The notes below the pieces were generated by a model. That model saw only the letters and a program-made list of their open reading frames with translations. It was not told the DNA's origin and made no database searches. DNA of 35,484 bases from a virus: the IMG/VR virus record IMGVR_UViG_3300008740_000456, positions 1-35,484 of that record; one strand, written 5' to 3'. Shown piece by piece: positions 1 through 30,562 of the stretch. A program made the translations under genes and the position numbers. The stretch's first letter is position 1; each line of letters opens with the position of its first letter.

Positions 1-675
1 GTGTATTACATTTGAATCGCCTACTATGTAAATATCTGCACTTGCACCTTCGCTACCTGAACTATCTGCAAACTGACTATGCGAAGCAGTTTGTGGACCA
101 ATTGCCTTATTTGCATTTGTATTAAATCCTTCTGAATCTGTTGAACTGTACCATTCTACAGTATTTGAGTCACCTGACATACGAACATATAAGAAATGGT
201 TGTCACCTCTATTCTGAACCCAAAATGTATTTGAATCTCCATAAATGTCTAAGTCAACATTGAAATTTGTTGTAGAGTCTGACCAAGTATCATAGTCTAC
301 TACGTTTGAATCACCTGTAATATCATGATCTAAATAAAAACCTGTAGCATTAACGTCATCTATGTCAGGTCTTAATTTATTAGAATTACCAATTGCTGTA
401 TAATCAAAGGTCATATTAGTACCTTTAAAAGATAAGTGACCATTATAATCTGTTACGTTTGTATTACCTATTTGTTTAATAATAATAGTAATTTTATTTC
501 CGTCAATTACAAAAGGATTATCTGTGCTTCTTCCAAACGTATTGTTTAATCCGTCTTGTTTTATATAGACTGAACCATTTTCTTGATCAATTTGTGTTAT
601 AAAGACTTTATTACTCGCATAACAATTAATCGTTGTTGCTAGTAACAGTATTAGACTCAATAATAACGCTCTCAT
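1..675 (-). CDS. Curlin-like secreted repeat protein, C-terminus beyond the window
   Basis: The minus-strand frame from ATG 675 stays open for 225 codons to the window edge, so the C-terminus is missing. It begins with a signal peptide (MRALLLSLILLLATTINCYA). The mature part holds curlin-style units: YIKQDGLNN, IIKQIGNTN, then AIGNSN, ITGDSN, IYGDSN, MSGDSN and IVGDSN, spaced roughly 20-35 residues. Curlin subunits (CsgA/CsgB) are built from IxQxGxxN-type repeats; here G(D/N)(S/T)N is kept but the Gln is mostly lost after the first repeats. A strong GGAGG lies 7 bases before the ATG. The start overlaps the 3' end of csgG by 50 bases in another frame, so the two are probably co-translated. Position directly after csgF-csgG suggests it is the cargo of that pore. 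It could instead be a non-amyloid beta-solenoid surface protein. Confidence 0.8.
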   Translation of the reverse strand, partial: MRALLLSLILLLATTINCYASNKVFITQIDQENGSVYIKQDGLNNTFGRSTDNPFVIDGNKITIIIKQIGNTNVTDYNGHLSFKGTNMTFDYTAIGNSNKLRPDIDDVNATGFYLDHDITGDSNVVDYDTWSDSTTNFNVDLDIYGDSNTFWVQNRGDNHFLYVRMSGDSNTVEWYSSTDSEGFNTNANKAIGPQTASHSQFADSSGSEGASADIYIVGDSNVIH

Positions 676-1879
676 CTGCGACCTCCAATGCGGCTTTCTG
701 ATCATTTAAAATTGTTTGAATTTTTGCTTTACGTATTTCTTTTTCTGTTTCTTTTAAATCAAATGCTACTAACATTTTTAAATGGTCTTGATATTCATCC
801 CAAGTTTTAAAATCTGTACTGTTAGCTTTATTATACCAAGCTAATTCATTCTTTTGAACTTTCTTTAAATGTTTTTTAGCCAACAATGCTTCTTTTTTAG
901 CTAACTTTTCTGCCTTCAAGGCTTCTTTTTTAGCTTTCTTCTCTTCTAACAATGCAAGTTTTTTAGCTTTCTTTTCTGCTAGGTATTCTTCTCTTGTTTT
1001 AATTTTTACTACTGTTTGTTCTACTTCTAAATTTACTTTTACTTCTTCTTCAGTAACAACTTCTGCATCTGACTCTTCAACTGCTTCTGGTAGTACTGGT
1101 TCCGGTGGTAGTTTAATTTTCCATATTTCTTTTTTAGCACCTACTTGTATAATTTCTGCAACACCGGCTTCAATTGCTTTTCTCACAGCAAAAGTAACTG
1201 GTTCGTTTCTTGCTACTCCAATTTCAGTTTCTAATAACATTGTATCAGCATCAAAGTACTTGAATATATCTCCACCTGTTCCTGTTGAGAATATTGTTTT
1301 TTCAATTGTTGTTGATATAACAACTTCACCTGTTTGCACATTTACTAATCTTAAAATAACAGTAACTACATCTTGTCTGTATTGTGTATTGGCTTGTACG
1401 CCTAAAATTCTTGCACCTATACCACCTGATTTAGTATCTGAATCGTATCCTACTATACCACCTGTAATATATGCACCTGCAAATAATAATGCTGGTAATG
1501 GTTCAGCTTGATCACCATCTGCCATTTGTCTTGTTGATCTAATAAGTTTTCTTTCTTGTAATAGACTTGGTAAACTTGCTCTTTCAACAACTCTAAACCA
1601 TTTGCCTTCTCCGGCATCTTGTAATGCTTTAATTAAAAGTTGATATGACCCTTGAGTTACTGCTGTACTCATTGATGCAAAATTGCCACCTGGCTTCTTT
1701 TGTCCTGTCATATCTAAGAAGTCATAGACAGCAATTATAATAGGGTCTCCATCTAACTCAGGAACCTCTAAAAATGTTTTTGCTACAGGCTTTTGAGTTC
1801 TGTAATCGAAGTCTGGTTTACCAGCACAACTAGCCAGAAATAAAGTTGCTAGAAATATAATTGCTAATTTTTTAAACAT
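626..1879 (-). CDS. csgG: CsgG-like curli secretion pore lipoprotein with long C-terminal extension
   Basis: CsgG forms a nonameric outer-membrane channel for curli subunits. The protein starts with a lipoprotein signal (LFLASC, Cys18). The core shows CsgG hallmarks in order: IAVYDFLDMTGQKKP, STAV, LLQERKLIRSTRQ, GGIVGYDSDTKSGG, IGARILGVQANTQY, LRLVNVQTGEV, and NEPVTFAVRKAIEAGV. E. coli CsgG is 277 residues; this one is 417. From about residue 260 it has an acidic Pro/Glu linker, then a Lys/Ala/Leu/Glu-rich, coiled-coil-like stretch (about 290-350) and a further helical tail, all expected in the periplasm. The constriction loop (PYPASNF in E. coli) reads PGGNFASM, one residue longer. The ATG follows the csgF stop by 2 bases, with GGAAG upstream. 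Family assignment is firm; the substrate is inferred from neighbours. Confidence 0.93.
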   Translation of the reverse strand: MFKKLAIIFLATLFLASCAGKPDFDYRTQKPVAKTFLEVPELDGDPIIIAVYDFLDMTGQKKPGGNFASMSTAVTQGSYQLLIKALQDAGEGKWFRVVERASLPSLLQERKLIRSTRQMADGDQAEPLPALLFAGAYITGGIVGYDSDTKSGGIGARILGVQANTQYRQDVVTVILRLVNVQTGEVVISTTIEKTIFSTGTGGDIFKYFDADTMLLETEIGVARNEPVTFAVRKAIEAGVAEIIQVGAKKEIWKIKLPPEPVLPEAVEESDAEVVTEEEVKVNLEVEQTVVKIKTREEYLAEKKAKKLALLEEKKAKKEALKAEKLAKKEALLAKKHLKKVQKNELAWYNKANSTDFKTWDEYQDHLKMLVAFDLKETEKEIRKAKIQTILNDQKAALEVADESVIIESNTVTSNND

Positions 1880-1881
1880 TA

Positions 1882-2334
1882 TTAGTCTTCCTTCGGCATT
1901 GTAAATGATGTTACAGTTCCGTCTGTTTCGGTAACAGTAATTGTAACATTACCAGTACCTGAAGGCGTCGTCCAAGTTACAACTTCGCCACCAATAGGTG
2001 ATGTAAATGTTCCTGAATCTTGTTGTAAACCATCAGCACCAAATACGTTTGTTGTAATTTGTTTTGCTAAAGCCGTATAAAATCTTGATTCTAAATTTGC
2101 TTTGAATTTTGCTATCGCAGTATTTTTTGCATCTTGCTCTGCTTTTTCTTTTGCGGCTTTATCAGCGGCTTTTATAGCATCTTTTCTTGTTTTTTCTATG
2201 TTTTCAATAGTCAAATAGTGTGAACTTTTGCCTTCTCCACTGAAAGATGGGCTATCAAAGTCAAACGTTATTTCGCTGGCTTGAACACCAGTGAATAAGA
2301 AACATAATAGTATAATATGTGCTAGAATCTTCAT
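1882..2334 (-). CDS. csgF: CsgF-like curli assembly factor
   Basis: CsgF is a secreted partner that inserts its N-terminus into the CsgG channel and helps nucleate fibres. The protein has a signal peptide ending near VQA, and its mature start SEITFDFDSPSFSGEGKS closely matches the CsgG-binding start of E. coli CsgF (GTMTFQFRNPNFGG). Residues about 45-75 are an Ala/Lys helical insert that E. coli CsgF lacks. The C-terminal part has the beta-rich CsgF look (GGEVVTWTTPSGTGNVTITV). Start ATG 2334 has AAGGAG upstream. It is the first gene of the minus-strand csg module. It is about the usual length (E. coli 138; here 150). Confidence 0.85.
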   Translation of the reverse strand: MKILAHIILLCFLFTGVQASEITFDFDSPSFSGEGKSSHYLTIENIEKTRKDAIKAADKAAKEKAEQDAKNTAIAKFKANLESRFYTALAKQITTNVFGADGLQQDSGTFTSPIGGEVVTWTTPSGTGNVTITVTETDGTVTSFTMPKED

Positions 2335-2371: not shown

Positions 2372-2379
2372 TATTTATA
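2372..2379 (-). promoter_or_regulatory. Late-type promoter octamer for the csg module
   Basis: Read on the minus strand this is an exact TATAAATA, the -10 box of T4 late promoters, 37 bases before the csgF start. No TTGACA-like -35 is seen at the right distance. It would drive csgF, csgG and the curlin-like gene together. A perfect 6-bp inverted repeat with a 1-base centre (2389-2401) sits just upstream. Confidence 0.55.
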
Positions 2380-2432
2380 CATAATCAATCAGATAATCTG
2401 ACAGGCGACCGTGGCTTAAATATTATACTATT

Positions 2433-4079
2433 ATGTCAAAAATTTTAACAAGCAAATGGGCGGTTTGTGTCACTTTATTGATACTTTTATTCATTAAGTG
2501 GGTAGATCCTACACCTATTCAGTCAGCTAAACTTACCACATTTGATTCATATCAAAAGTTTGGTAAGCATTTTACATCTAAGAGCTTAATATTATTAGAC
2601 ATAAGTGATCAAGCATTAAAAAGTCAAGGTCAATGGCCCTGGAAAAGGGATATTATAGGACGGGCAATAGTTAATGCCTATCGTAATGGCGCCGCCCTAG
2701 TAGTCCTTCAAGTCGTGTTTGCACACAAAGATAGACTAGGTGGAGATGAAATGTTCCTTAAAATGATTTCAAAGTATCCAGTTATTCTTACAGAAACCAA
2801 CGATGTTAAAAATATAATAAGCATTGAACGAAAAGCTCGGGCAGTAGGTAATGTAAGTGTACCTATTGACATAGATGGTACTATAAGAAGACTACCTCTT
2901 GATAAATCAATTCCTGCTGTTATATTAGAAACAATTCAATATTACAATAAAGCAAAAAATGAAATATGGTTGGATTTTAGACATCATATTCCACGATTAG
3001 ATTATACAGATAAAAGCAACTGGTCAAAAATGAAAGGTAAAATTGTATTCATTGGAACTACATTTAAAGGATCAACATTTGTTACTACGCCTAATGGTTT
3101 AAAAAACACTCATGAGATAATGGCCATTGGTACAGAAACATTGTTATCACAAAATTTTATTAGTAGACCAGATTGGTTAGAAAAAGTAGAATGGGCATTT
3201 ATTATTATAGGAGGTATTTTATTTTTATTAATAATTCCTAGATTAGGTGTGCTATGGAGTTTAGTCCCTTTTATAGTTTATCTAAGTATTGTTCTTGGAA
3301 CAAGTGCTTACCTATGGACAACAAACCTATATCTTACAGAATGGCTAACACCTGTTGTGATTATTACTATAGTTTGGGGACACTTAATATATAATAACTT
3401 TGCACGAGAGAATAGATTAAAACTACAAATCAAAAGACAGTTTGAACATTACCTTGCACCCGACATGGTTAAGAAGTTACAAAAAGATCCATCACTATTG
3501 AAGTTGGGTGGTGAAACTCGTACAATGACATTTTTGTTTTCAGACATAAGAGGATTTACACCCATCAGTGAAAAGTACAAAGGCAATCCAGAAGGACTTA
3601 CAAAACTTATTAATAGATTCTTAACACGTATGACAGATGTTATTATTAAAAATGGTGGAACAATAGATAAGTTTATGGGAGATTGTATTATGGCATTTTG
3701 GAATGCTCCAATAGAGAATGGAGAACACGAAGAATGTGCAGTTCAAAGTGCAATGGAAATGGAAGAAGAACTTGCTATGTTAAATGCTGAACTTATTGCA
3801 GAAGGGTTGCCACAAATCAATATTGGGATAGGTATAAACACAGGAGAAGCACTTGTGGGCAACATGGGGTCTAAACAACGATTTGACTATTCTGTAATAG
3901 GAGATGCAGTAAATTTAGCCTCTAGATTAGAGTCTAGTTCAAAGACACTTGGTAAAACAATAGTCATAGGTGAAGAAACAGTTAATAGAGCCAAGCTCAA
4001 TTATAGTTTTGAATACATTGATGACATAAAAGTTAAGGGCAAAACAGAGTTTATCAAGGTATATACCATAACAAAATAA
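2433..4079 (+). CDS. Membrane CHASE2-class III adenylate cyclase
   Basis: This would make cAMP from ATP at the inner membrane under control of an extracytoplasmic CHASE2 sensor. Order of parts: TM at about 9-23; CHASE2 domain at about 30-245 (LDISDQALKSQGQWPWKRD is typical); three TM helices at about 253-270, 272-292 and 303-321; then a class III catalytic domain from about 362. Metal ligands are present as D371 (FSDIRGF) and D417 (DKFMGDC); the adenine-selecting Lys is K413; the transition-state pair is N494 and R498 (AVNLASRLE). S487 (FDYSVIGD) occupies the Asp/Thr position, which fits the IIIb group. All catalytic residues look intact and the length of 548 is complete. It is divergent from the csg module, with no clear Shine-Dalgarno. 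A plain TTAAATATTATA lies just before the ATG. A membrane cyclase is very unusual in a phage-like context. Confidence 0.92.
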   Translation: MSKILTSKWAVCVTLLILLFIKWVDPTPIQSAKLTTFDSYQKFGKHFTSKSLILLDISDQALKSQGQWPWKRDIIGRAIVNAYRNGAALVVLQVVFAHKDRLGGDEMFLKMISKYPVILTETNDVKNIISIERKARAVGNVSVPIDIDGTIRRLPLDKSIPAVILETIQYYNKAKNEIWLDFRHHIPRLDYTDKSNWSKMKGKIVFIGTTFKGSTFVTTPNGLKNTHEIMAIGTETLLSQNFISRPDWLEKVEWAFIIIGGILFLLIIPRLGVLWSLVPFIVYLSIVLGTSAYLWTTNLYLTEWLTPVVIITIVWGHLIYNNFARENRLKLQIKRQFEHYLAPDMVKKLQKDPSLLKLGGETRTMTFLFSDIRGFTPISEKYKGNPEGLTKLINRFLTRMTDVIIKNGGTIDKFMGDCIMAFWNAPIENGEHEECAVQSAMEMEEELAMLNAELIAEGLPQINIGIGINTGEALVGNMGSKQRFDYSVIGDAVNLASRLESSSKTLGKTIVIGEETVNRAKLNYSFEYIDDIKVKGKTEFIKVYTITK

Positions 4080-4925: not shown

Positions 4926-5189
4926 ATGAAAAAGATAACAAGATCAATATTAGATGATTTGCATAGTATTCATAGAGTCAAGGATACTGAAGCATTTCTT
5001 GAGACTACAGGTAGCAACATAATAGAAAGTGCTGTTAACCTGTTGGACGTCATTAATAAAAACTACCCTCCTGAGCAGGCCCAAGAATTAGAGAGAAGAT
5101 TCATTAATTCTATTAAGAACGGTGAATCAAAAAAATTCAAAGTCGGCATTAAGAAGATCATAGAGGGTAAACAAGATGAATCAAATTAA
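4926..5189 (+). CDS. Hypothetical phage protein
   Basis: An 87-residue, mostly helical product with many charged residues (MKKITRSILDDLHSIHR start; C-terminal IKKIIEGKQDESN). No domain recognised. Its 3' end overlaps the nucleotidyltransferase-like gene by 14 bases, so the two are likely co-translated. The upstream gap (4844-4925) holds a GGTAAATA late-type box and a tiny GGTG/CACC hairpin. Confidence 0.65.
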   Translation: MKKITRSILDDLHSIHRVKDTEAFLETTGSNIIESAVNLLDVINKNYPPEQAQELERRFINSIKNGESKKFKVGIKKIIEGKQDESN

Positions 5190-5931
5190 TGAAGGCGGAA
5201 ACATATTCAAAAATCCTACCGGCCAACCAGCAACACAAAGAATTAATCAAGCAGACGTAGACCCAACTATTGCCTGGCTAGAAAAAATTACAGGATTACC
5301 TTTACAATCAAACAAATTAGGAACTACAGGAACATCTCCTACAAGTGGAGATATAGATGTTGCTGTAGATCAATCTAAAATTACAAAAGACCAATTAGTA
5401 TCAAAATTGACGCAATGGGCTCAAGCTAATAAGCAAGACCCGTCAAAATGGATTAAGAAAAGTGGTATTAGCGTTCATTTTAAAACACCTATTAACGGTA
5501 ATGTTAAAAATGGATTCGTACAAACTGACTTAATGTTCGGTGACCCAAATTGGATGTCCTGGAGTTTGAAAGGCTCATCTCCAGGCTCCAACTATACTGG
5601 AGCGGATAGACACGTATTCATTGCTAGTATATCTAAAGCACGAGGATATAAATGGAGTCACAAGAACGGTTTATTAAAAAGAGATACAAACGAACCTGTA
5701 TCTAAAAAGCCTGATCAGATAGCAAGTTTATTATTAGGTAGAAATGCTAAAGGATCTGATCTTGATAGTGTAGAAAATATTCATAAAATGATTAGAGGTG
5801 CATCTGACTATAACGAATTAGTTGCAGACTTTAGAGATAGTCTTGCAAAAATAGGAAAAACAATGCCTGAACACGTTATCGAAGGAAGTCCTGTTTGGTT
5901 TAAAGGTTTATTAGCAAAGGTTAATCTATGA
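5176..5931 (+). CDS. Pol-beta-type nucleotidyltransferase-like protein
   Basis: The signature of the minimal nucleotidyltransferase fold is visible: GTTG...SGDIDVAVD at about 49-65 (catalytic D59 and D61), then a third carboxylate, D118, in VQTDLMF. This three-acid layout is that of enzymes that transfer a nucleoside monophosphate from NTP to RNA, protein or a small molecule. The C-terminal half is helical and not recognised. The gene overlaps the ligase-like gene by 4 bases (ATGA-type), so both products are likely made together. The true substrate is unknown. Fold confidence is good; activity is inferred from the preserved acids. Confidence 0.75.
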   Translation: MNQINEGGNIFKNPTGQPATQRINQADVDPTIAWLEKITGLPLQSNKLGTTGTSPTSGDIDVAVDQSKITKDQLVSKLTQWAQANKQDPSKWIKKSGISVHFKTPINGNVKNGFVQTDLMFGDPNWMSWSLKGSSPGSNYTGADRHVFIASISKARGYKWSHKNGLLKRDTNEPVSKKPDQIASLLLGRNAKGSDLDSVENIHKMIRGASDYNELVADFRDSLAKIGKTMPEHVIEGSPVWFKGLLAKVNL

Positions 5932-7070
5932 AATTAGTAGAGTTTAAAAAAGTTACAGGTAATTGTAAAACACCTTTATTAGAAACAGGAGGCAGAATTG
6001 ACCATGCCGAAGACCTTGTATTTTGGAATGGTAGCCAAGGAGCCTTAAATGCTATAAGACAATTAGAAGGATTAGCTAAAAATACTAATAACCTTACAAT
6101 TAAATGGGATGGTTCTCCAGCAGTAGTGTTTGGAAGAAATCCTAATGGTGAATTTATTTTTACAGACAAAAGTGGATTTCACGCACAAGGATATGATGGT
6201 AGAGCAACGAACTCAGCTGACTTAAAAGGAATGATTAAAGATAGAGCAAAGAAAAATCCTTCTAAAACAAATTCATATAAAGCCTACGCAGATAAAATTG
6301 TTCCTATTTTTAATACAGTAGCAAAAGCAATTCCTAATAAGTTTCAAGGTTACTTTAATGGTGATATGTTATATTTTGCAAAACCAGAACAAGCTAATGG
6401 CAGATATGTTTTTAAACCTAATGTAGTAGAATATAGTGTTGATGCTAGTAGTGAATTAGGTAAAAAAATTGGGCAAAGCAAAGCAGGTGTTGTTGTTCAC
6501 AATATGATGAGTGAACAAGGAAGAATTATGCCAATTAAAGAACTTGATAGATATATTCAAGGACGTGGTTTATTTGTAATTCCGCCAACAACTGTAAACA
6601 AGAAAGTAGGTGTAGATACCAACGCACTAAACAAAATAAAAAATGTGGTAAGTCAAAATGCTACTTTAATAGATGCCTTATTAGACAAAAACAAATTAGC
6701 TAGTATGAAACTAACTGATCTACCTAAAATATTATATGCATATACTAACGCAAAGGTTGATCAAGGACTTCAAAATTTAGGTAGTGACTTTTCTAGATGG
6801 TTATTAACTAGTGCAGTTAGTGAACCAAAGAAACAAAAAATTATAGAATATGTAAAACAAAATATAAATGGCTTTGTAGCACTTTGGAATACTGTTAGTG
6901 GTATAATGAATGCTAAAGATAATATTATAACACAATTAGATACTGCACCTGGAGATGTTCAAGCATCTATAAATGGTAGACCTGGTGGAGAAGGTTATGT
7001 GTTGGGCGGTATAAAACTAGTTAGAAGATCTGGGTTCACTCAGGCTAACAGAGCAATAAATAAAAGATAG
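5928..7070 (+). CDS. Covalent nucleotidyltransferase (ligase-like) family protein
   Basis: Residues 57-66 read TIKWDGSPAV, the KxDG motif I of ATP-dependent DNA/RNA ligases and capping enzymes, with K59 as the candidate AMP-linked lysine. Downstream segments resemble further ligase motifs: GYFNGDMLYF (about 141-150, motif III-like) and AGVVVHNMM (about 186-194, motif IV-like). The N-terminus (GRIDHAEDLVFWNG) and helical C-terminus lie outside the known core. I believe related marine T4-like phage proteins are filed as a domain of unknown function. It is coupled to the NTase-like gene before it. RNA end repair, tRNA repair or modification of a virion component are possible, and nothing here decides between them. 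Confidence 0.7.
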   Translation: MKLVEFKKVTGNCKTPLLETGGRIDHAEDLVFWNGSQGALNAIRQLEGLAKNTNNLTIKWDGSPAVVFGRNPNGEFIFTDKSGFHAQGYDGRATNSADLKGMIKDRAKKNPSKTNSYKAYADKIVPIFNTVAKAIPNKFQGYFNGDMLYFAKPEQANGRYVFKPNVVEYSVDASSELGKKIGQSKAGVVVHNMMSEQGRIMPIKELDRYIQGRGLFVIPPTTVNKKVGVDTNALNKIKNVVSQNATLIDALLDKNKLASMKLTDLPKILYAYTNAKVDQGLQNLGSDFSRWLLTSAVSEPKKQKIIEYVKQNINGFVALWNTVSGIMNAKDNIITQLDTAPGDVQASINGRPGGEGYVLGGIKLVRRSGFTQANRAINKR

Positions 7071-7079
7071 GAGAATAAT

Positions 7080-7592
7080 ATGAGATTTAATGAATTTAGA
7101 GACCCAGCTGATCAGGAACCAGCATACGACAAGGACTTTAAACAAGATTCTTTATTCAATCAATTAGGTAAAGTTTTAGATAGTCAAGGTAATCCTAAAC
7201 CAGTAGACACCGTTACTACAGATGATAATAAACAATTTAAAGTTACAGTAGCCCAAGCTGAACTAATAAGAAATTTAATGACATCTAATGACATTAAACC
7301 AGCTTTAAGAGGACGATTTACTAAAGATATACAAGGGTCAACTACTCTTGCTAAATTTTTAGGATCACCAGATATGATAACACTATTTGGACAAATGTAC
7401 ATGAACGTAGATGATGGTGGTGCCCAGGACGAACAAGTTGATGAAATCAAGAAGAAAAAGAAACCTAAACCTAGTTTTTGGAGTCCTAAACCTTCTGGAA
7501 AGTCTCGAGGCGTATTACCCAAGAAAGGACCTTCCGCTATTAAAGGTGGCCCGAAAACAGGACCTACGGCAAACGTGGCACTAGCAAATTAA
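7080..7592 (+). CDS. Hypothetical phage protein with basic tail
   Basis: 170 residues. The first half is mixed charged and helical. The middle carries VDEIKKKKKPKPSFW, and the C-terminal 45 residues are Pro/Gly/Lys rich and probably disordered. AGGAGAATAAT gives a good Shine-Dalgarno. It is packed between the ligase-like gene and an HNH-like ORF. Proteins of this look sit among virion genes in marine T4-like phages, but I recognise no domain. Confidence 0.65.
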   Translation: MRFNEFRDPADQEPAYDKDFKQDSLFNQLGKVLDSQGNPKPVDTVTTDDNKQFKVTVAQAELIRNLMTSNDIKPALRGRFTKDIQGSTTLAKFLGSPDMITLFGQMYMNVDDGGAQDEQVDEIKKKKKPKPSFWSPKPSGKSRGVLPKKGPSAIKGGPKTGPTANVALAN

Positions 7593-7594
7593 AG

Positions 7595-7834
7595 ATGTGT
7601 ATAAAGTACGACAGATATAGAGGTTGGATTAAAACACTACCTAAAAAAAGAAAAGGTAAAAGTACAGTCCAACATTGGATTCTTCCAGAAAGCATTGGTG
7701 GAATAGATGCAAAAGATAATAAAGTATGGATGACACATGAAGATCATATTACAGCCCACAAAAAACTTGTACAATGTTTTAAATCTCCTAAAAGAGATAA
7801 AATGGTAATTGCTTTAAATGAGGTATTAAATTAA
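7595..7834 (+). CDS. HNH-like endonuclease domain, small and probably degenerate
   Basis: The 79-residue product is almost only an HNH core: VQHWILPESIGGIDAKDNKV then MTHEDHITAHKKL. HNH proteins usually read HHIxPxSxGG...DNxVxLTxxEHxxAH. Here the first His of HHI is Gln while the second His, the Asn and the final H..AH are kept. A free-standing small HNH can be a homing nuclease remnant or a recruited virion protein. It begins 2 bases after the previous stop and overlaps the next start by one base, so it is built into the operon. Activity is uncertain because of the Gln. Confidence 0.65.
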   Translation: MCIKYDRYRGWIKTLPKKRKGKSTVQHWILPESIGGIDAKDNKVWMTHEDHITAHKKLVQCFKSPKRDKMVIALNEVLN

Positions 7835-8721
7835 TGTTAGACACAATTGGAGTTCCATTTATTAGTGAAATATATGAAGCGAGAATGACTCGTAATTCAA
7901 GCGACACTAAAATATTGACTTATACAGACTGCACTGAAAGATTATATCTAACTGTTCTTATTTTAGAACTATTAAGCAAATATAAAACATACAAACATTT
8001 TGCAAGAGCATATGCTAAAAATACAACAACTTATTCTAGCTATAGAAATTTTAGAATGAATGGTACTGACCTGTACAATTTTATATACTTTGTTACAGGT
8101 GACGCAAGAGCAATGAACAAATTAAAAGATCCTAAAAGTGCTATGGCAAAAAGAAAAGCTACTACATTTCCTACCATGGCTTTAAATAGATACCTATCAA
8201 AAATAGCAAGTGGAACACAAAGTACTGATACTCAATTATTTGCTAATTTAGAATCTGCTTTAAAAATCAGAAACAGCGACTATAAAGCAGTTAGAAGAGA
8301 CATATTAAATTATACTAGTTTAACTCCAACAACTCGTAAAAAAGCAGTTACTAGATTACTTCATGCCGCTAGAGCAAAATTAAGAAATAGTGATATTATA
8401 CAACATTTACAAAGATTAATTACAGATAAAAATTTAGAAACAGGGTTAGTTAAAGATAATGAACCTAAAATTAGTGTACCTGATATAGGTGTAGAAGGTA
8501 GAGATCTTGCTATGTATAGATATCTTACTGGAACTAAAAGCATAGTTCAATTAAAAAGATTTATAGAATTTGCGTTAGCAGGAAAATCTATACCTGCTAC
8601 AATAGTTGGTGCATATATTCCTGCAATTAAAATGATAGACGATATTGTTAAAGCAGGTCCAGGAACTGTAGCAATTTTAAAAGGATTGCATCAAAGAGCC
8701 TTAAAAACACGTAGAAAGTAA
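7834..8721 (+). CDS. Hypothetical phage protein
   Basis: 295 residues, basic and largely helical, with no signal peptide or membrane segment and no motif I can name. It starts on the TAATG of the HNH-like gene and ends the operon that began near 4926. A 230-base leader for the first small virion-type protein follows. Position among virion-type genes suggests a structural or assembly role, by context only. Confidence 0.6.
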   Translation: MLDTIGVPFISEIYEARMTRNSSDTKILTYTDCTERLYLTVLILELLSKYKTYKHFARAYAKNTTTYSSYRNFRMNGTDLYNFIYFVTGDARAMNKLKDPKSAMAKRKATTFPTMALNRYLSKIASGTQSTDTQLFANLESALKIRNSDYKAVRRDILNYTSLTPTTRKKAVTRLLHAARAKLRNSDIIQHLQRLITDKNLETGLVKDNEPKISVPDIGVEGRDLAMYRYLTGTKSIVQLKRFIEFALAGKSIPATIVGAYIPAIKMIDDIVKAGPGTVAILKGLHQRALKTRRK

Positions 8722-8769
8722 TATTAACACACAATTTTCAACCCATTCACACTAAATAAATGCAATACA

Positions 8770-8790
8770 CAGTCTACGGAGTGTAGACTG
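8770..8790 (+). repeat. GGAG-loop hairpin in the leader of the 8952 gene
   Basis: CAGTCTAC-GGAGT-GTAGACTG: a perfect 8-bp stem with a 5-base loop. It lies 11 bases after an ACTAAATA late-type box (8751-8758), so it would form at the very 5' end of the transcript. A hairpin with the same CTACGGAG(N)GTAG core recurs at 9767-9789. The rest of this 230-base leader (8722-8951) shows no gene; it ends with GGGAGACAACAA before the ATG. Confidence 0.6.
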
Positions 8791-8951
8791 CCAATACAGA
8801 GAAAAGAATATACAAATATTGGCTGAAAGTGATCATACAAACACATTCACATATATTGTTAATCTTTTCTTTAACAAAACGGTAATGAACTAACGTCCAA
8901 CCTGTCCGTTGAATTTTAGGGAGTTACCATTTTTTAAAAGGGAGACAACAA

Positions 8952-9296
8952 ATGGCTAAATTAGCAAGAACTAGCGGCTTCGGTGATTTTTTAACAACTG
9001 GAGGCGTAAGAAGTACAGCTAACCTAGGTGCATTTTTAATCGACGCAGGCGGAGACCTTCGTGACGAAGACGATGCGGCTAGAGAAGCAGTTGAAGTTAT
9101 CCTTGGTGAAGTACAACCGTTACTTTACAGCATTGTAAACGATAACAGTGGAAAAATGACTGTAATAGTAGACAACTCGCAAACTGACGCAACTGATTTA
9201 CAAAGACGTCTTAGAGCATTAGACACAGTAGGTCCTAATGACTATGACATATCAGGCGCAACAGTTACAGCGGCTTCTACACTAGTAGCGGCGTAA
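8952..9296 (+). CDS. Small virion-type protein 1, probably abundant
   Basis: 114 residues, acidic, no signal peptide. It starts MAKLARTSGFGDFLTTGG and ends DISGATVTAASTLVAA. GCG/GCA codons are frequent compared with the AT-rich neighbours, and there is a strong GGGAGA Shine-Dalgarno behind a long structured leader, all signs of high expression. Two further genes of the same size and C-terminal style (TVTA, VTVAATTISG) follow, each with its own leader. I read them as decoration or appendage proteins of the virion, by context. I recognise no named family. Confidence 0.65.
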   Translation: MAKLARTSGFGDFLTTGGVRSTANLGAFLIDAGGDLRDEDDAAREAVEVILGEVQPLLYSIVNDNSGKMTVIVDNSQTDATDLQRRLRALDTVGPNDYDISGATVTAASTLVAA

Positions 9297-9324
9297 TTCA
9301 CGCTAATAACTTTAATAAGGTTTT

Positions 9325-9349
9325 TGGGGTGTTCTTACTGGGCACCCCA
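9325..9349 (+). repeat. GC-rich hairpin between virion-type genes 1 and 2
   Basis: TGGGGTG pairs with CACCCCA (7 bp, 11-base loop). A U-run is before the stem, not after it, so it does not look like a standard terminator. It may stabilise the upstream mRNA 3' end or act in mRNA processing. Confidence 0.5.
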
Positions 9350-9386
9350 GAACATTGTTAAAAATTTATAAAAAAGGAGAAAACAA

Positions 9387-9731
9387 ATGGCAGTAATATC
9401 AGGAAGTAAAGACATTACAAACCCTAATGGCGTAGAATTTTTATCGAAAGATATTGATTTTTACAAAATTACAGGTGCTACAGGAATTCACACTGCTCCA
9501 GAAGGTGCATCTTCAGTTTTTCACAAAACTGTAAGAGCTATATCTGGCGAAGCGAATATCGTAGTACTTGGTATACCAGCGGCTAATGACCTAGTAGTAG
9601 GCTTAGAAGGTGGTTACGAAGGTAATGGAAGTACAGGTGCGGCGGCGACTTTAAAGGCGCTTATCGACACAGAGACTGGTGTTTCAGTTACGGTAGCGGC
9701 AACGACTATCAGTGGCGACACTTGGTCTTAA
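9387..9731 (+). CDS. Small virion-type protein 2
   Basis: 114 residues, starting MAVISGSKDITNPNG. Alternating hydrophobic and polar residues and Gly/Ala/Thr-rich turns suggest a beta-rich fold; the end is VSVTVAATTISGDTWS. It has a good AAAGGAGAAAAC Shine-Dalgarno and its own non-coding leader. Length equals the gene before it, and the SVTVAATT tail echoes its TVTAAST. No enzyme motifs. Probably a coat or fibre component, by context only. Confidence 0.6.
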   Translation: MAVISGSKDITNPNGVEFLSKDIDFYKITGATGIHTAPEGASSVFHKTVRAISGEANIVVLGIPAANDLVVGLEGGYEGNGSTGAAATLKALIDTETGVSVTVAATTISGDTWS

Positions 9732-9766
9732 TAGTTAATATAATATAATATTAATTTTTTTAACAT

Positions 9767-9789
9767 TTAATCTACGGAGCGTAGATTAA
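9767..9789 (+). repeat. GAG-loop hairpin in the leader of the 9819 gene
   Basis: TTAATCTACG-GAG-CGTAGATTAA: a perfect 10-bp stem with a 3-base loop. The top of the stem and loop (CTACGGAGCGTAG) match the hairpin at 8770-8790. It lies 29 bases before the next ATG and upstream of an AAAAGGAG Shine-Dalgarno. The repetition in two leaders suggests a common RNA-level role. Confidence 0.6.
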
Positions 9790-9818
9790 GTCATTTAAGA
9801 GAAAAAAGGAGAAAAAAA

Positions 9819-10187
9819 ATGGCGACAGTAACAAGAGTTAATCCAGCGTCAGAGGCGGTGGACTTTAACAACACAGGAAGAAACCTAGTGCATTTAGACA
9901 TTGACTTTAATGGTGCAGTTAACGGCAAATTAGGCCCAAACTCAACAGTTAAAGCAGTTCTAGAAGCAATAAGTCAAACTAATAACATAGTATTGGCTGG
10001 ACCACTTCACACTACAAACAACAATATGTCAATTGCGGTTGAAGGTGATTTTGGCGAAGACACATACGATGGTACTAATTCTGAAACTTTAGCGGCACAC
10101 TTAGAAGATGTAGTGCAGGCTTTAGGAACAGTTGATGGTATTGGTTTAGGCTCAGCAACAGTTACAGCTAAAACATACGTGCTGTAA
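9819..10187 (+). CDS. Small virion-type protein 3
   Basis: 122 residues with no signal peptide, starting MATVTRVNPASEAVDFNNTG and ending GSATVTAKTYVL. Asn/Thr/Gly rich and probably beta-structured. AAAAGGAGAAAAAA gives a strong Shine-Dalgarno. It closes the trio of small, well-translated genes and is followed by a clear terminator. Role inferred as virion surface or appendage protein. Confidence 0.6.
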   Translation: MATVTRVNPASEAVDFNNTGRNLVHLDIDFNGAVNGKLGPNSTVKAVLEAISQTNNIVLAGPLHTTNNNMSIAVEGDFGEDTYDGTNSETLAAHLEDVVQALGTVDGIGLGSATVTAKTYVL

Positions 10188-10227
10188 TTTAAAATAAGAA
10201 TTAAACTTTTTAGATTCTCAGAATTAA

Positions 10228-10257
10228 GGGTGTTCAAGAAATTGAGCACCCTTTTTT
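10228..10257 (+). terminator. Intrinsic terminator after the virion-type trio
   Basis: A 10-bp stem (GGGTGTTCAA with TTGAGCACCC, one G-U pair) capped by a GAAA tetraloop and followed directly by TTTTTT. A textbook factor-independent terminator, 40 bases after the stop at 10187. Confidence 0.88.
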
Positions 10258-10298
10258 CATCTATAATAAGTACAACTAGCTTAAGAGAAGAAAAGTGT

Positions 10299-10730
10299 AT
10301 GAGATTTAAAATTTTATCATTAGTAGACATTACAAAAACAGGGTTACACAAAAATAATAGCAAAGACGAAAAAGCTATTTCCCAAAACGCCAACTATCTA
10401 ACCTTTGAAAACTGTCTCCAATTTAGATCAAATATTGAACCTATTGACAATCCAAAATTAGAGAAAATGAATTTGGCAAATACAAATTTTGGTGAGAACT
10501 ATACTGGAGAACATAATGTATGGTCTATGGAATTTACAATGGAAGATAGAGCAGACCCTTTACCTATTAGTGAAATTATAGGTCATTTAAAAGAAGACAT
10601 AGATTTGGTCCCTATAATCAATGCATTAGACGAAACTATTAGTTTAACCAATAGTATGTTCAGAACACAAGATTTAAAAACTAATAATATAATAATAGTA
10701 GAAAAAGACGATAACCTTGGCAATAAATAG
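10299..10730 (+). CDS. Hypothetical phage protein
   Basis: 143 residues from ATG 10299 (MRFKILSLVDITKTGLHK). The frame is open further upstream to 10230, but that part lies in the terminator hairpin, and AGAGAAGAAAAG sits properly before 10299, so the shorter start is chosen. The middle (LTFENCLQFRSNIEP) and the acidic C-terminus show no enzyme motif. The style resembles proteins of marine T4-like phages whose role is unknown. An AATAAATA late-type box overlaps the 3' end (10722-10729). Confidence 0.65.
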   Translation: MRFKILSLVDITKTGLHKNNSKDEKAISQNANYLTFENCLQFRSNIEPIDNPKLEKMNLANTNFGENYTGEHNVWSMEFTMEDRADPLPISEIIGHLKEDIDLVPIINALDETISLTNSMFRTQDLKTNNIIIVEKDDNLGNK

Positions 10731-10813
10731 TAACATTAAACGAATCAAGGCACATTTTAGGCACAATCTTAGGCCCTTCCACTGGATAATAAAATAATAG
10801 GAAGAGAGAAAAA

Positions 10814-11053
10814 ATGGCAGAGTCCAAAAGTATAGAACAGAAAAATTTAGAAGCACACGTCGAGTTGTGTCACCAAAGATACGAGTCTTTGGAAAAGAGA
10901 CTTGGTGCAATAGAACAAAAAGTTGACCAAAATCAACAAGCTATTATGCATGGTAACAAGTCGATGATTAAAGTTATTATAGGTGCCACAGGGACCATAG
11001 TAGCTGGACTCCTTTCCACAATAGTAGTTCTATTATTAAAATTTCCATTATAA
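10814..11053 (+). CDS. Holin/XhlA-like small membrane protein
   Basis: 79 residues: a charged N-terminal coiled coil (about 8-45, with YESLEKRLGAIEQKVDQNQQ) followed by one C-terminal hydrophobic helix (about 52-77) and a two-residue tail. This coiled coil plus tail-anchor plan is that of XhlA-type lysis proteins and other small phage membrane proteins. GGAAGAGAG precedes the ATG. The role in lysis is inferred from architecture only. Confidence 0.55.
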   Translation: MAESKSIEQKNLEAHVELCHQRYESLEKRLGAIEQKVDQNQQAIMHGNKSMIKVIIGATGTIVAGLLSTIVVLLLKFPL

Positions 11054-11065
11054 CCCCCCACATTC

Positions 11066-11073
11066 GCTAAATA
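11066..11073 (+). promoter_or_regulatory. Late-type promoter-like octamer GCTAAATA
   Basis: GCTAAATA, followed by CG, 22 bases before the ATG at 11095. It matches the recurrent (N)(A/C)TAAATA element in front of virion-type genes in this window. Confidence 0.35.
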
Positions 11074-11094
11074 CGTTCATACAGTAGGAAAAGT

Positions 11095-11454
11095 ATGAAA
11101 ATAGTAGAAGTAGTAAGTCCATTACAGGTAGGTGAAACGTTTGTCCAGGTCTGGTCTAGAACTGGTGGCAAAATGGTACGTAGGTATCGTTGCACTGCTG
11201 GAGTACGAAAAGGAAGAATAGTATCTGATCCTAAAACTTGTACAGCTCCTAAAAGGATGTCTGGTATCATATCAATCAAAAGAGCAAAAGCTAGAAGAGG
11301 TTCTGCACTTAAAGTTAAAAGAGCAAGAACTAAAAGAGCTACATTTTCTAGACGTATAGCAAAACTAAACAGAATGGGTAATCAAACTGTTAGAGGAAGA
11401 ACATCGTTTAGAACATCTACGAGACCTAAAATTTGGAGAAGGGCATCGCTTTAG
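11095..11454 (+). CDS. Very basic, possibly nucleic-acid-binding phage protein
   Basis: 119 residues, very rich in Arg and Lys. It starts MKIVEVVSPLQVGETFVQVW, then a Cys-containing YRCTAGVRKGRIVSDPKTC stretch, then a long Arg/Lys/Ser/Thr tail. The two Cys could bind a metal, but the pattern is not complete. A DNA- or RNA-condensing or head-internal role fits the charge. I have no family name. Confidence 0.65.
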   Translation: MKIVEVVSPLQVGETFVQVWSRTGGKMVRRYRCTAGVRKGRIVSDPKTCTAPKRMSGIISIKRAKARRGSALKVKRARTKRATFSRRIAKLNRMGNQTVRGRTSFRTSTRPKIWRRASL

Positions 11455-11457
11455 ATA

Positions 11458-11835
11458 ATGAGATATAGAGAAATTAAAGAAACCGATTATATACAAAACC
11501 TAATTAAAAAAATAGGTGCAGGACAATCAACTGGAGGACCTGTTCCACAAGGTGTACTACCTAAAGGAACTATTAGATCAGCAGGCGCCTCACAATCAAC
11601 CAAAGTAATTAATAGACAAGTCGACAGGGATTTACTTAAACCAGGCAAAGTACTTCCTATACCTGTTGGCCCAAATCAAGAAACGGACATGGAAATAGAC
11701 AAAGTTGATACAGATACAGTATCATTTAAAAACCCTGATCCAAAGCCCGGAGAACCCCCTACAACCACACTTAATAAGAAGGACCTTAATCCTGTAATAA
11801 ACAACTTATTAAGAAGACAAAGAGCACAGGGATGA
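11458..11835 (+). CDS. Hypothetical phage protein, Pro/Gly rich
   Basis: 125 residues starting MRYREIKETDYIQNLIKKIG. The rest is low-complexity with many Pro, Gly, Thr and Asp, so probably extended; it ends LLRRQRAQG. The last 4 bases overlap the next gene (ATGA). No motif recognised. Confidence 0.6.
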   Translation: MRYREIKETDYIQNLIKKIGAGQSTGGPVPQGVLPKGTIRSAGASQSTKVINRQVDRDLLKPGKVLPIPVGPNQETDMEIDKVDTDTVSFKNPDPKPGEPPTTTLNKKDLNPVINNLLRRQRAQG

Positions 11836-12050
11836 AGATTAACGAATTAATATTAGACAGTTTTAAAATTTACGTCTCAAATGAAGAATATAACGTTTTG
11901 AGTAAACTTAAAGAACAGAGTCGTTTAGATCTCTTTACCGAAAGAGAACAACAGTTAATCAGAAATCTTATAAACAAAAGTGTCGTTAAAAAAATAGTAA
12001 AAGACGGACAAGTGCTTGTGGTTGGAAATGAATACAAAACATCTATCTAA
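11832..12050 (+). CDS. Small hypothetical protein, possibly winged-helix-like
   Basis: 72 residues. The core FTEREQQLIRNLINKSVVKK followed by a short VLVVGNEY strand resembles the helix-helix-wing run of small DNA-binding domains, but it is too short for a firm call. It overlaps its neighbours at both ends (4 and 23 bases), as expected for a compact phage operon. Confidence 0.55.
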   Translation: MKINELILDSFKIYVSNEEYNVLSKLKEQSRLDLFTEREQQLIRNLINKSVVKKIVKDGQVLVVGNEYKTSI

Positions 12051-12453
12051 AGAATTAAAAAAACTCATAGACAGAAACATTCATAAGGTATGCATACCTA
12101 TAAAAAATGGTAGTGGCATACGGATGAAACATTATATAATACGTGAAAACGGTTATAGTAACTTAATATACGACCTTAGGTATAATAAACAAGTTGCTAC
12201 TACATTTACTAAAACAGGAGCCATTGCAACAGCTAAAGCCCTAGTCGATAATCGTGAAGATGACATAGAACAAATAACAAATCTAGATAGAGAAATCCAA
12301 TCAAAATACAATAAATGCGTACAATTCAAAAGCACAATAGCTAATTCTGATAATGAAGTTACTGTAGATTCTGCCCATATACGTTACGATATTGCGTGGG
12401 ATGATTTGTTAAACCTAAGGGACCGCCTAGATGAGTATGTATTTGATAAATAA
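12028..12453 (+). CDS. Hypothetical phage protein
   Basis: 141 residues from ATG 12028 (MNTKHLSKELKKLIDRN); an upstream TTG in frame is less likely. Mixed alpha/beta with a helical C-terminus (IAWDDLLNLRDRLDEYVF). It overlaps the previous gene by 23 bases in another frame. No motif. A GATAAATA late-type box (12445-12452) overlaps its stop and would serve the next gene. Confidence 0.6.
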   Translation: MNTKHLSKELKKLIDRNIHKVCIPIKNGSGIRMKHYIIRENGYSNLIYDLRYNKQVATTFTKTGAIATAKALVDNREDDIEQITNLDREIQSKYNKCVQFKSTIANSDNEVTVDSAHIRYDIAWDDLLNLRDRLDEYVFDK

Positions 12454-12474
12454 ATCATATAGGGGATATTATTA

Positions 12475-13578
12475 ATGAAGATATCGCAATTTAACGCAAA
12501 AGTTACAGCAGAGCAAATGAATCAAACGTTAGCACAAATGTTTGGTGAAAGCATTGACCTTAAAAAGTTCACAATGGAGCAATTAGAGTCTGCAAAAGCA
12601 AGAACTATCAACAAAATTTCAACACTTCAAGCCCAAGAAAATTTAGCTACTAGCGAAGAGTATCAAAAACAAAGAATGTTTTTAGATGTAATAAATGCGG
12701 CAATTGAAGGCGGTATGTCTGATATCCATGTAGGTGCTCAAGAGATAGTAGGCGAGTATCAAGACGACGTGGATCATTTAGCTAAACCTAAAGCTGAAGT
12801 TATAGCAGATTTAGAGCGAAGAAAAGCAGAAGCAAAAGACTCAACTTCACAATATACACTATCTACTGCAATAGATATGGTTCAAAATGGCTTTGATGAC
12901 CAAGGAGATGCTATTCCAGACCCTAGCGATATGGCACCCGAGAACATAAATACTGATACAATGAAAGCAACAGATTTAAAAACAACAGAAGCAAAAGGCA
13001 AGGACCATGATAAAGATGGTGATGTTGACTCTAAAGATTATATGAAATCAAAAGATATAGCAATTAAAAAAGCAATGAAAAAAGAAGACGTACAAGTTAA
13101 AGAAGGCGCAGAAGAAAATGCACAATTAGTGATGGCGGCTAAAGATATGGTTGACAAAATCACAGGCTGGATGGAAGACACAGCGTCAATGCAAACAGAA
13201 TCAATGTTAGAATTAAGCGATGCAATTAGAGATGAAGTAGGCTCAGAACAATCAGAATCATTTGTTAATCAAGTTAAACCAGCATTAGAATCATTATACT
13301 CAGCACTAGAAGTTACAAGAACATCATTAACAGGAGGCGTAGCCGTCCTGACAGGCGAGACAGTTCCAGCAACAATGGGAACAGATACTCCAGACGAGCC
13401 TGTAGTAGAACCAACAGATGATATAGCAGATGTTCCAGCAGACGATTTCGGAGCGAGCGAACCTGCAACTGGTGGAGATTTACCAGCAGACAGAGGCAAA
13501 AGAGAATCAATTTTAAGAATGTCAAGAAGACTAGCAGAAACATTATCAGCAAAGTCCACAGGAAAAAAAAAGGCTTAA
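12475..13578 (+). CDS. Core/scaffold-like phage protein with Ca-binding-type loop
   Basis: 367 residues, Glu/Lys/Ala rich, largely helical (MKISQFNAKVTAEQMNQ start). Residues about 178-192 read DHDKDGDVDSKDYM, a DxDxDxxS loop like EF-hand or dockerin sites. The centre (GAEENAQLVMAAKDMVDKI) is a long helix. The C-terminus is an acidic Pro/Ala linker, then RESILRMSRRLAETLSAK. Proteins with this loop and helix plan occur in marine T4-like phages near head genes; a core, scaffold or chaperone role is inferred. The frame ends at TAA 13576 immediately after a nine-A run, while the -1 frame stays open for 108 further codons that look truly coding. The protein as read is therefore probably the short form. 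Confidence 0.75.
   Translation: MKISQFNAKVTAEQMNQTLAQMFGESIDLKKFTMEQLESAKARTINKISTLQAQENLATSEEYQKQRMFLDVINAAIEGGMSDIHVGAQEIVGEYQDDVDHLAKPKAEVIADLERRKAEAKDSTSQYTLSTAIDMVQNGFDDQGDAIPDPSDMAPENINTDTMKATDLKTTEAKGKDHDKDGDVDSKDYMKSKDIAIKKAMKKEDVQVKEGAEENAQLVMAAKDMVDKITGWMEDTASMQTESMLELSDAIRDEVGSEQSESFVNQVKPALESLYSALEVTRTSLTGGVAVLTGETVPATMGTDTPDEPVVEPTDDIADVPADDFGASEPATGGDLPADRGKRESILRMSRRLAETLSAKSTGKKKA
13563..13572 (+). promoter_or_regulatory. Slippery A-run (A AAA AAG) before the frame break
   Basis: Nine A then G. In the 0 frame the bases 13566-13572 read A AAA AAG, the classic bacterial -1 slippery heptamer (as in dnaX). A -1 slip leads into an open frame to 13898. It could also be an under-called A10 in the assembly; one extra A would restore one long gene. 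Confidence 0.6.
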
Positions 13579-15111: not shown

Positions 15112-16740
15112 ATGGCTATTGTATCGATATCAAGAATACAGATTAGACGAGGTAAAAAGAACGCAGGTTCTGGTTTACCCCAACTTGCAGGTGGTGAATT
15201 TGGATGGGCAGTCGATTCTCAAGAATTATACTTGGGTAATGGCTCTGTATCTGAAGGTGCACCTAACGTTGGAAATACTAAAGTTTTAACAGAACACGAT
15301 AACTTATTTCAATTAAGCAATCAATACATTTACCTAAATGGATCTACTGTACAAACAGGAACAACTGCATTAAATCATACTAAAAGAGATTTACAATCTA
15401 GACTAGATGATTTAGTTAGTGCTAGATCATTTGGTATTACTGGAGATGGTACAGATGTAACAGATGCTTTACAAAGAGCAATAGATCAATTATTTTGTAA
15501 CCCGGCAACTGTAGGAAATGAAACAAGCAGAGTTACACTTCATCTTCATGCTGGAGTATATGTTATTAACGGAACATTACACCTTCCACCTTTTACAAAC
15601 ATTCAAGGAGATGGTAGTGATAAAACTGTTATAAAACAAAATGGAAGTTTTACAACTATTGTTGCAGTAAACGGAATTAGAGTTCCAGGTGACAGTTCAA
15701 CTCACTTTGCACAAACAACTACTCTTAACCAACCAAGACACATTTCAATTAAAGGTTTAACAATTGAACATACAACTAGTCATGCATATTTTGGAATGCA
15801 ATTAGATAATGTTACTAATAGTATTTTTGAAGATGTTAAATTAAAAGGACCATGGACTACAGGAACAGCAATTCAAAATGGTGCTGAAGCAGGAATTAAA
15901 TTAACAAGTTTAAGTTCTGTTGTTACTAGTTCAAATAATAATTTTAACAACTTTTATGTAGATGGTTGGAGCAATGGAATAATTTCAGATAATGATATTG
16001 TTAATAATACTTTTACAAACAGCATATTTGAAAATTTAGGATATGGTGTAGTATGGGGCAGAGGTACAAATTTAGGAAATGTAGCAATGGCTACAGGACC
16101 TATTAACAATGCTATTACTAATTCAAGATTTGCTAACATAGATAAAAATGGTTTTTGGGTTAAAGAAGGTTATGGAAATGTTAGTGCAAATAATTCTTAT
16201 GCATTAGTTGGAAATGATGGTGGTACAGAAAATGGACCAATATCTGGAGTAATTAAATTTGAATCTAAAAATAATTCATCTCACACAGATCACTTTACTA
16301 GAACAAAAGTTTTATCATCTGATACTGCAAATTTATCTAACGTTGCATACATTCCAGAGATAGAAGGAAAGTTTGCAGGTACTTTTTCATATACGTTTGA
16401 TGCTTCAGTAGGTTATGTACCAACTACACAAAGATTATTTAGATTACCAGCAGATTCAAATAAAAAATATAAAATTGATTACACATATCTAAGCAATACA
16501 GTTAACGCAACAAGACATGGTGAATTAAATGTAATGCTTAATATAGCACAAGGTACAACTAAAATTGCAGATGAATACAATTACGATGGTGATGTAGCAT
16601 ATCAAACTAATTTAGAATTTACAACTGCATTATCAGACGAAAATGGTGACGCAACAAAGGAAACTTTGGTATTTTATGTTAAAAATACTACTGCTGGAGA
16701 CAATGCAGGCTTACTTTTCCACGTTTCGGTTCTTTCTTAA
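15112..16740 (+). CDS. Tail/appendage protein with pectate-lyase-like beta-helix
   Basis: 542 residues. The N-terminus (SRIQIRRGKKNAG, then LPQLAGGEFGWAVDSQELYL) is the short module seen at the start of phage fibre and tropism-determinant proteins. Then SFGITGDGTDVTDALQRAID (about 105-124) marks the entry of a pectate-lyase-3-type right-handed beta-helix, with Asn/Thr/Ile-rich coils to about residue 430. The last about 110 residues form a separate beta-rich C-terminal domain (NATRHGELNVMLNIAQG). Likely role: virion appendage that binds or cleaves a host surface polysaccharide. No catalytic residues can be assigned by eye. Confidence 0.82.
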   Translation: MAIVSISRIQIRRGKKNAGSGLPQLAGGEFGWAVDSQELYLGNGSVSEGAPNVGNTKVLTEHDNLFQLSNQYIYLNGSTVQTGTTALNHTKRDLQSRLDDLVSARSFGITGDGTDVTDALQRAIDQLFCNPATVGNETSRVTLHLHAGVYVINGTLHLPPFTNIQGDGSDKTVIKQNGSFTTIVAVNGIRVPGDSSTHFAQTTTLNQPRHISIKGLTIEHTTSHAYFGMQLDNVTNSIFEDVKLKGPWTTGTAIQNGAEAGIKLTSLSSVVTSSNNNFNNFYVDGWSNGIISDNDIVNNTFTNSIFENLGYGVVWGRGTNLGNVAMATGPINNAITNSRFANIDKNGFWVKEGYGNVSANNSYALVGNDGGTENGPISGVIKFESKNNSSHTDHFTRTKVLSSDTANLSNVAYIPEIEGKFAGTFSYTFDASVGYVPTTQRLFRLPADSNKKYKIDYTYLSNTVNATRHGELNVMLNIAQGTTKIADEYNYDGDVAYQTNLEFTTALSDENGDATKETLVFYVKNTTAGDNAGLLFHVSVLS

Positions 16741-30256: not shown

Positions 30257-30562
30257 ATGAGTACTGACATAGAAGTAAAAATAGATGAAAAAATAAAACA
30301 GGTTGTCAAAGAACCTGAAAATTACAAAGTTATATTTTTGAATGATAATATAACTCCTATGGAATTTGTAATTGATATATTAATCAAAATATTTAAACAC
30401 ACTCCAGAAACGGCTCGTGATCTTACTATGAAAATTCATAAAGAAGGTTCTATTATTGTTGGCATTTATACATACGAAATAGCAGAACAAAAAGGTATGG
30501 AGGCAACTAACGAAAGTAGAAGTTTGGGATATCCACTTCAAATAAAGATTGAAAAAGAGTGA
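30257..30562 (+). CDS. clpS: ClpS adaptor of the ClpAP protease
   Basis: 101 residues. Core motifs are clear: YKVIFLNDNITPMEFVIDIL (the N-degron pocket region), then AMKIHKEG-type TMKIHKEGSIIVGIYTYEIAE, and LGYPLQIKIE at the end. ClpS delivers N-end-rule substrates to ClpAP and hinders degradation of ssrA-tagged proteins. In a phage it could steer host proteolysis. The stop overlaps a GTG start of the heme oxygenase by 4 bases, so the two are coupled. Full family length. Confidence 0.92.
   Translation: MSTDIEVKIDEKIKQVVKEPENYKVIFLNDNITPMEFVIDILIKIFKHTPETARDLTMKIHKEGSIIVGIYTYEIAEQKGMEATNESRSLGYPLQIKIEKE

Follow-up and report, generated by a model that had tools for sequence, protein, structure and literature searches.

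Why should a phage carry a complete membrane-bound adenylate cyclase back to back with genes that change the cell surface? The question is raised by an IMG/VR virus record that is present whole in the stretch analyzed here (35,484 bases, hereafter the window) and carries many phage genes, with nrdA and nrdB among the T4-like ones. The cyclase gene (positions 2433..4079, plus strand) encodes 548 amino acids. Its N-terminal part, residues 15-265 (2475..3227, plus strand), is a CHASE2 sensor region (PF05226, E 2.8e-28, 99.6 bits against a cut-off of 26.3), and residues 363-546 (3519..4070, plus strand) form a class III catalytic domain (Guanylate_cyc, PF00211, E 3.2e-23, far above its cut-off). 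The AlphaFold model is confident (mean pLDDT 89) and places membrane helices at residues 8-24, 247-270, 273-298 and 305-337, that is, on both sides of the sensor. The catalytic part of the model matches CyaB of Pseudomonas aeruginosa (TM 0.91 by target length, 1.3 A, 38% identity), and the closest viral model is a COG4252 sensor from an uncultured Caudovirales phage (TM 0.91 over the query). As judged from its sequence and modeled fold, the gene is a membrane CHASE2 receptor fused to an intact class III cyclase.

The residues expected to support catalysis are all in place, including the two metal-binding aspartates (D371 and D417), the substrate-binding lysine and aspartate (K413 and D485), and the transition-state asparagine and arginine (N494 and R498). 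A first-pass annotation of this DNA had claimed a full-length membrane cyclase with an extracytoplasmic CHASE2 sensor; the five residues that it named (D371, K413, D417, N494, R498) lie exactly where it placed them, and its sensor is confirmed by the strong PF05226 match together with the bounding helices of the model. The adenine-contacting residue D485 comes in addition to those five. In class III cyclases, an aspartate at this position goes with ATP as substrate. Since D485 is present, ATP is the predicted substrate of the window cyclase, which probably makes cAMP from it, to judge by these residues and by the similarity to CyaB.

We compared the catalytic residues across 208 distinct phage relatives. 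The full hexad (DKDDNR) is kept in 145 of them, the window clade included, while 61 sequences, forming a Melnitz-type clade, have serine in place of both the adenine-contacting aspartate and the transition-state asparagine; one example lies at 9989-12040 (plus strand) of contig L083. In the Melnitz-type clade the product or the substrate may differ, or the activity may have been lost, and therefore cAMP may not be what every one of these proteins makes.

The neighborhood of the gene is a curli export locus. On the opposite strand lie csgF, encoding the curli pore accessory protein (1882..2334, minus strand; PF10614, E 1.7e-12), csgG, encoding the outer-membrane export pore (626..1879, minus strand; PF03783, E 7.6e-49), and an ORF for a curlin-repeat (CsgA/B-like) protein that is cut by the contig end (1..705, minus strand). 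The last was recognized by its repeated curlin-type motifs and by its position after csgG, as in the cultured phage HTVC008M; Pfam gave no match in this ORF, and its true start is probably an internal ATG. The back-to-back arrangement noted in the first-pass annotation thus stands, with the cyclase divergent from csgF and with both csg genes confirmed by Pfam. The window ends inside the curlin gene, and in its close relatives L003, L004 and L005 a FecR-domain gene adjoins this gene.

Several other genes of the window deserve mention in their own right. A heme oxygenase (PF01126) adjoins a ferredoxin-dependent bilin reductase (PF05996) at 30559-32079 (plus strand), a pair that makes up a pigment cassette; the phage is no obvious cyanophage. 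The gene at 26528-28438 (plus strand) encodes a 636-aa membrane protein with long coiled-coil-like stretches and a weak tetraspanin-like match below cut-off. A pectate-lyase-like repeat protein with a weak Mtd_N match, encoded at 15112-16740 (plus strand), is probably a tail fibre or tropism protein.

The cyclase and the curli genes form a recurrent module in viruses. One IMG/VR scan with the window cyclase returned at least 394 related viral stretches, and a second scan with the HTVC008M version returned at least 585. The cultured phages HTVC008M (on SAR11) and Melnitz (on OM43) share the order csgF-csgG-curlin-fecR-curlin-cyclase. We labeled CsgF, CsgG, FecR, curlin and cyclase genes in the fetched loci. 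Among the 111 viral loci with at least 5.5 kb upstream, CsgG, CsgF and FecR all accompany the cyclase in 110 and FecR does so in every one, and, of the 32 loci located through CsgG that had enough flank, all 32 contain CsgF, FecR and the cyclase. As top matches to a few queries, these loci are not independent draws. The linkage of cyclase, curli genes and FecR in phages is close to strict. The first-pass annotation had proposed a search of viral contigs for CHASE2 cyclases next to csgG, and had allowed that the gene might be a product of misassembly or carried by no other phage. The search found the pair in many separate contigs and in cultured phages. Because the gene recurs beside csg across these contigs and cultured phage genomes, misassembly and bacterial contamination are excluded, and the gene is plainly not confined to one phage, as HTVC008M, Melnitz and the IMG/VR stretches carry it.

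Two layouts of the module were distinguished, namely the co-oriented one of the HTVC008M type and the divergent one of the window type (n = 52 loci, among them the window and L001, which is its own copy). Where the layout is divergent, fecR sits to the left of the curlin gene; for the window, this position falls just past its end. The phage FecR protein combines a FecR domain with an N-terminus that resembles a signal peptide, and 93 of 132 distinct sequences have a curlin-like strand at the C-terminus.

The association as such is not new, since the full module of curli genes, FecR and adenylate cyclase in pelagiphages, podophages as well as myophages, was described by Wittmers et al. 2022 (PMC9599517), and HTVC008M is already annotated with a cyclase. 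Phage csg genes were also described by Zaragoza-Solas et al. 2020 (PMC7029224) and Buchholz et al. 2022 (PMC9004378). However, CHASE2 is named nowhere in the main texts of PMC9599517 and the other phage csg papers searched, and our literature search found no paper uniting phage, marine, CHASE2 and adenylate cyclase; the naming of the sensor of the phage cyclase as CHASE2 is a new point beyond the earlier literature. The window shares with the pelagiphage type VIII secretion modules of HTVC008M and Melnitz the components CsgF, CsgG, curlin repeat and cyclase, with csgF, csgG and the curlin-repeat gene adjoining its cyclase, and to judge by L003-L005 its phage probably has their FecR as well. 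It differs from them in that its cyclase is divergent from csgF and has a late-like promoter of its own, in a shorter CHASE2 domain, and in a longer CsgG. The cyclases of HTVC008M and Melnitz are 31-33% identical to that of the window over the full length. The extra length of the window CsgG (626-1879, minus strand) is a Lys-rich C-terminal extension of about 140 aa, absent from both cultured phages.

Both arms of the divergent unit carry promoter-like elements. Upstream of csgF lies the T4-type late promoter motif TATAAATA (2372..2379, minus strand), and a TAAATA element, a possible late promoter, precedes the cyclase start by 16 nt (2417..2422, plus strand). In 39 divergent loci the TATAAATA motif was found upstream of csgF in 28, against 2.15 expected from shuffles, compared with only 30 of 80 co-oriented loci (3.5 expected). 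TAAATA was found upstream of the cyclase in 37 of the 39 divergent loci (13 expected), mostly at a spacing of 12 or 16 nt from the start. In HTVC008M and Melnitz, TATAAATA stands in front of late genes, with gp2, gp4, head and tail genes among those preceded by it, often at a distance of 13 nt from the start codon. From motif and spacing we infer late expression of both the csg operon and the cyclase. The presence of T4-late-like motifs on both arms is a new point; a general sigma-70 scan said little in a sequence so rich in A and T.

The cyclase also appears to be maintained by selection. Pairwise dN/dS values of phage cyclases range from 0.08 to 0.17, with synonymous changes near saturation in some pairs, and on this evidence the gene is under purifying selection. 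In L003, L004 and L005, sister phages whose CsgG is 100% identical to that of the window, a second CHASE2 cyclase lies beyond fecR and is complete in L004 (1037-2962, plus strand); another example is found in L008 (3086-4381, minus strand). The two cyclases of L004 are only 28% identical in their sensors but 81% in their catalytic domains. The window cyclase and the first cyclase of L004 are 95% identical in the sensor and 77% in the catalytic part, and the catalytic part of the window protein is 82% identical to that of the second L004 cyclase. This mosaic suggests that the catalytic output is kept while the sensors diversify. The low dN/dS and the second cyclase with its dissimilar sensor also add to the earlier literature.

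Bacterial relatives give a view of where the module may have come from. We examined 80 loci of the nearest bacterial cyclases, mostly from Alphaproteobacteria. Neither CsgG nor CsgF was found near any of these 80, a FecR-domain gene lies within 5 kb of the cyclase in 35, and FecR or type I secretion genes are near it in 53. By Pfam, the neighbors include FecR domains in large RTX/cadherin-type proteins as well as HlyB, HlyD and TolC-like genes. In eight such bacterial genomes, which have 13 CHASE2 genes, about 5 of these lie no more than about 7 kb from a FecR gene, against a rough chance expectation of about 0.15 (23 FecR genes in about 27 Mb). Bacterial curli operons were rejected as the source of the cyclase, both on the count of zero in 80 and because five alphaproteobacterial curli loci examined had neither FecR nor a cyclase nearby. 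Alphaproteobacterial CHASE2 cyclases, such as those of Bradyrhizobium, Afipia and Sneathiella, share with the phage proteins the architecture, the hexad and an adjoining FecR-domain partner. In contrast to the phage curlin with CsgG and CsgF, however, the alphaproteobacterial cyclases often have as partner a giant RTX/cadherin-type protein together with export of the HlyB/HlyD/TolC-like kind, and the two sets of cyclases separate in the tree, an unrooted one made by a quick method, where a fully supported branch divides all 58 bacterial sequences from all those of phages. Since the bacterial cyclases adjoin FecR and type I secretion genes and not curli genes, the phage module looks like a hybrid between a curli export pore and a FecR/CHASE2-cyclase pair that serves other secreted surface proteins in bacteria. 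This likely bacterial origin, beside FecR-domain adhesins and type I secretion, is another new point.

The literature offers precedents for parts of such a system. The Sinorhizobium meliloti CHASE2 class III cyclases CyaD1, CyaD2 and CyaK, which act with NsrA, answer a protein signal arriving via an outer-membrane beta-barrel (PMC13001267); they differ from the phage protein in being chromosomal and in having a known CRP-family receptor, Clr. Burkholderia no longer formed biofilm when the BiofilmReg operon, which includes a LysM-FecR protein and a CHASE2 histidine kinase, was disrupted (PMC5192318). This operon resembles the phage module in combining a periplasmic FecR-domain protein with a CHASE2 receptor and in its surface phenotype, although its CHASE2 protein is a histidine kinase and that of the phage a cyclase. 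According to a summary given in PMC5498481, the FecR domain touches the outer-membrane transporter FecA in E. coli.

Taken with the near-strict linkage, these comparisons lead to a proposal that has, in our judgment, about an even chance of being right, namely that the cyclase is the signaling arm of the marine-phage curli (type VIII secretion) module and acts as a late envelope relay from a FecR/curli complex through CHASE2 to cAMP. Late in infection the phage would assemble CsgG and CsgF into an outer-membrane pore through which curlin-like fibres are exported. The FecR protein could link the fibre or the pore to the periplasm, given its signal-peptide-like start, its FecR domain and its frequent curlin-like C-terminal strand. 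CHASE2 would then read the state of the FecR/curli export complex, in a contact with FecR that we infer from gene neighborhood, and the cyclase would respond with cAMP inside the cell. Most likely, the purpose would be to make some late step, for instance the timing of lysis, the gating of export or the control of superinfection, depend on fibre export or on the state of the envelope. A relay from pore or fibre to FecR, CHASE2 and cAMP is the most economical model.

The host bears on what such a signal could do. The window NrdA is closest to that of Pelagibacter phage Mosig (68.5% identity), and G510, a relative of the divergent type, has 74% DNA identity to Mosig around the capsid gene. From these similarities a SAR11 host is likely, though not proven; a DNA-level search of window positions 5100-13000 against cultured phages gave no match. 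Among 117 SAR11-family genomes, a CRP-type helix-turn-helix above cut-off was found in one, in a protein that looks FNR-like, and a cNMP-binding domain in five; many of these genomes are incomplete, so that the lack of a match in any one of them says little, yet taken together they show a clear pattern. Two members of this set carry all four of the SAR11 16S probe sites. Class III cyclases above cut-off were found in two of these genomes, on contigs L505 and L506. Both contigs carry csgF-csgG-curlin-fecR-cyclase in phage order, one also has a terminase, and their cyclases group on the phage side of the tree; host-encoded SAR11 class III cyclases were therefore rejected. These phage-type contigs are binned in the SAR11 MAGs G404 and G440, which thereby appear, falsely, to possess curli and cyclase genes. 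A phage-encoded cAMP receptor was likewise rejected within the scope examined, PF00027 (cNMP-binding domain) being found in none of six phage records. SAR11 thus appears to be essentially without CRP-type receptors, and the apparent absence of a known cAMP receptor from the likely host is a new point worth testing.

These counts weigh on the idea, put forward in the first-pass annotation, that the phage raises cAMP in order to reprogram its host via a CRP-type regulator. The catalytic hexad is intact, cAMP-CRP control is general in many other bacteria, and the host of the window phage is not proven to be SAR11. However, a single FNR-like protein with a CRP-type helix-turn-helix and five genomes with a cNMP-binding domain offer little for cAMP to act on, the late-promoter-like motifs argue against an early take-over of the host, and the idea does not require the strict tie to a curli module. 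We consider host control of this kind unlikely.

The same shortage of receptors in SAR11 would suit a protein whose chief part is to scaffold the export complex at the membrane or to act as its receptor, with cyclase output of minor importance, as would the 61 Ser/Ser sequences of the Melnitz-type clade, where activity may be lost or changed and dN/dS is still low. Yet all six catalytic residues are kept in the other 145 sequences, the window clade included, and we regard this reading as improbable.

Still less probable is that the cyclase has no phage role of its own and was merely carried along with FecR. The pair pre-exists in bacteria and could have been captured as a unit, and the Melnitz clade has altered catalytic residues; against this stand a dN/dS of about 0.1, the hexad in 145 of 208 distinct sequences, a cyclase at every one of the 32 CsgG loci with enough flank, and the mosaics of sensor and catalytic domain. 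The first-pass view that the gene is hard to explain as a passenger is therefore supported, as it is a genuine phage gene, conserved, csg-linked, intact and under purifying selection.

An anti-defence or decoy role, in which the cyclase floods or mimics cyclic-nucleotide immunity such as Pycsar or CBASS, was also suggested at first and is very unlikely, because its positive sign, the match of PycC models to the catalytic domain (best PDLC00734, E 5.5e-30), reflects the shared cyclase superfamily, D485 points to ATP, a decoy needs no membrane sensor, and a late-like promoter would act too late for early defence. Membership in Pycsar was rejected, as no PycTIR or PycTM effector adjoins the cyclase, whose neighbors are curli, FecR and phage genes, and PADLOC gave no match for csgF, csgG or FecR. 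Both the host-control and the decoy ideas have less support than the relay model.

To return to the relay, a broader form of it is a tentative proposal, namely that marine T4-like phages install a late outer-membrane-to-cytoplasm relay with interchangeable sensors and cAMP output in hosts without a known receptor. Such a relay would imply an unrecognized cAMP effector in SAR11 or in the phage, and raises the question of what answers cAMP in a cell without CRP. Few ligands of CHASE2 domains are known; the recurrence of a FecR-CHASE2 pair, beside bacterial adhesins as well as among the curli genes of phages, suggests that what these domains read may be the state of polymers secreted to the surface. 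Should the relay prove real, the role of the puzzling phage curli genes becomes testable, and phages of very abundant ocean bacteria would bring with them their own transmembrane second-messenger signaling.
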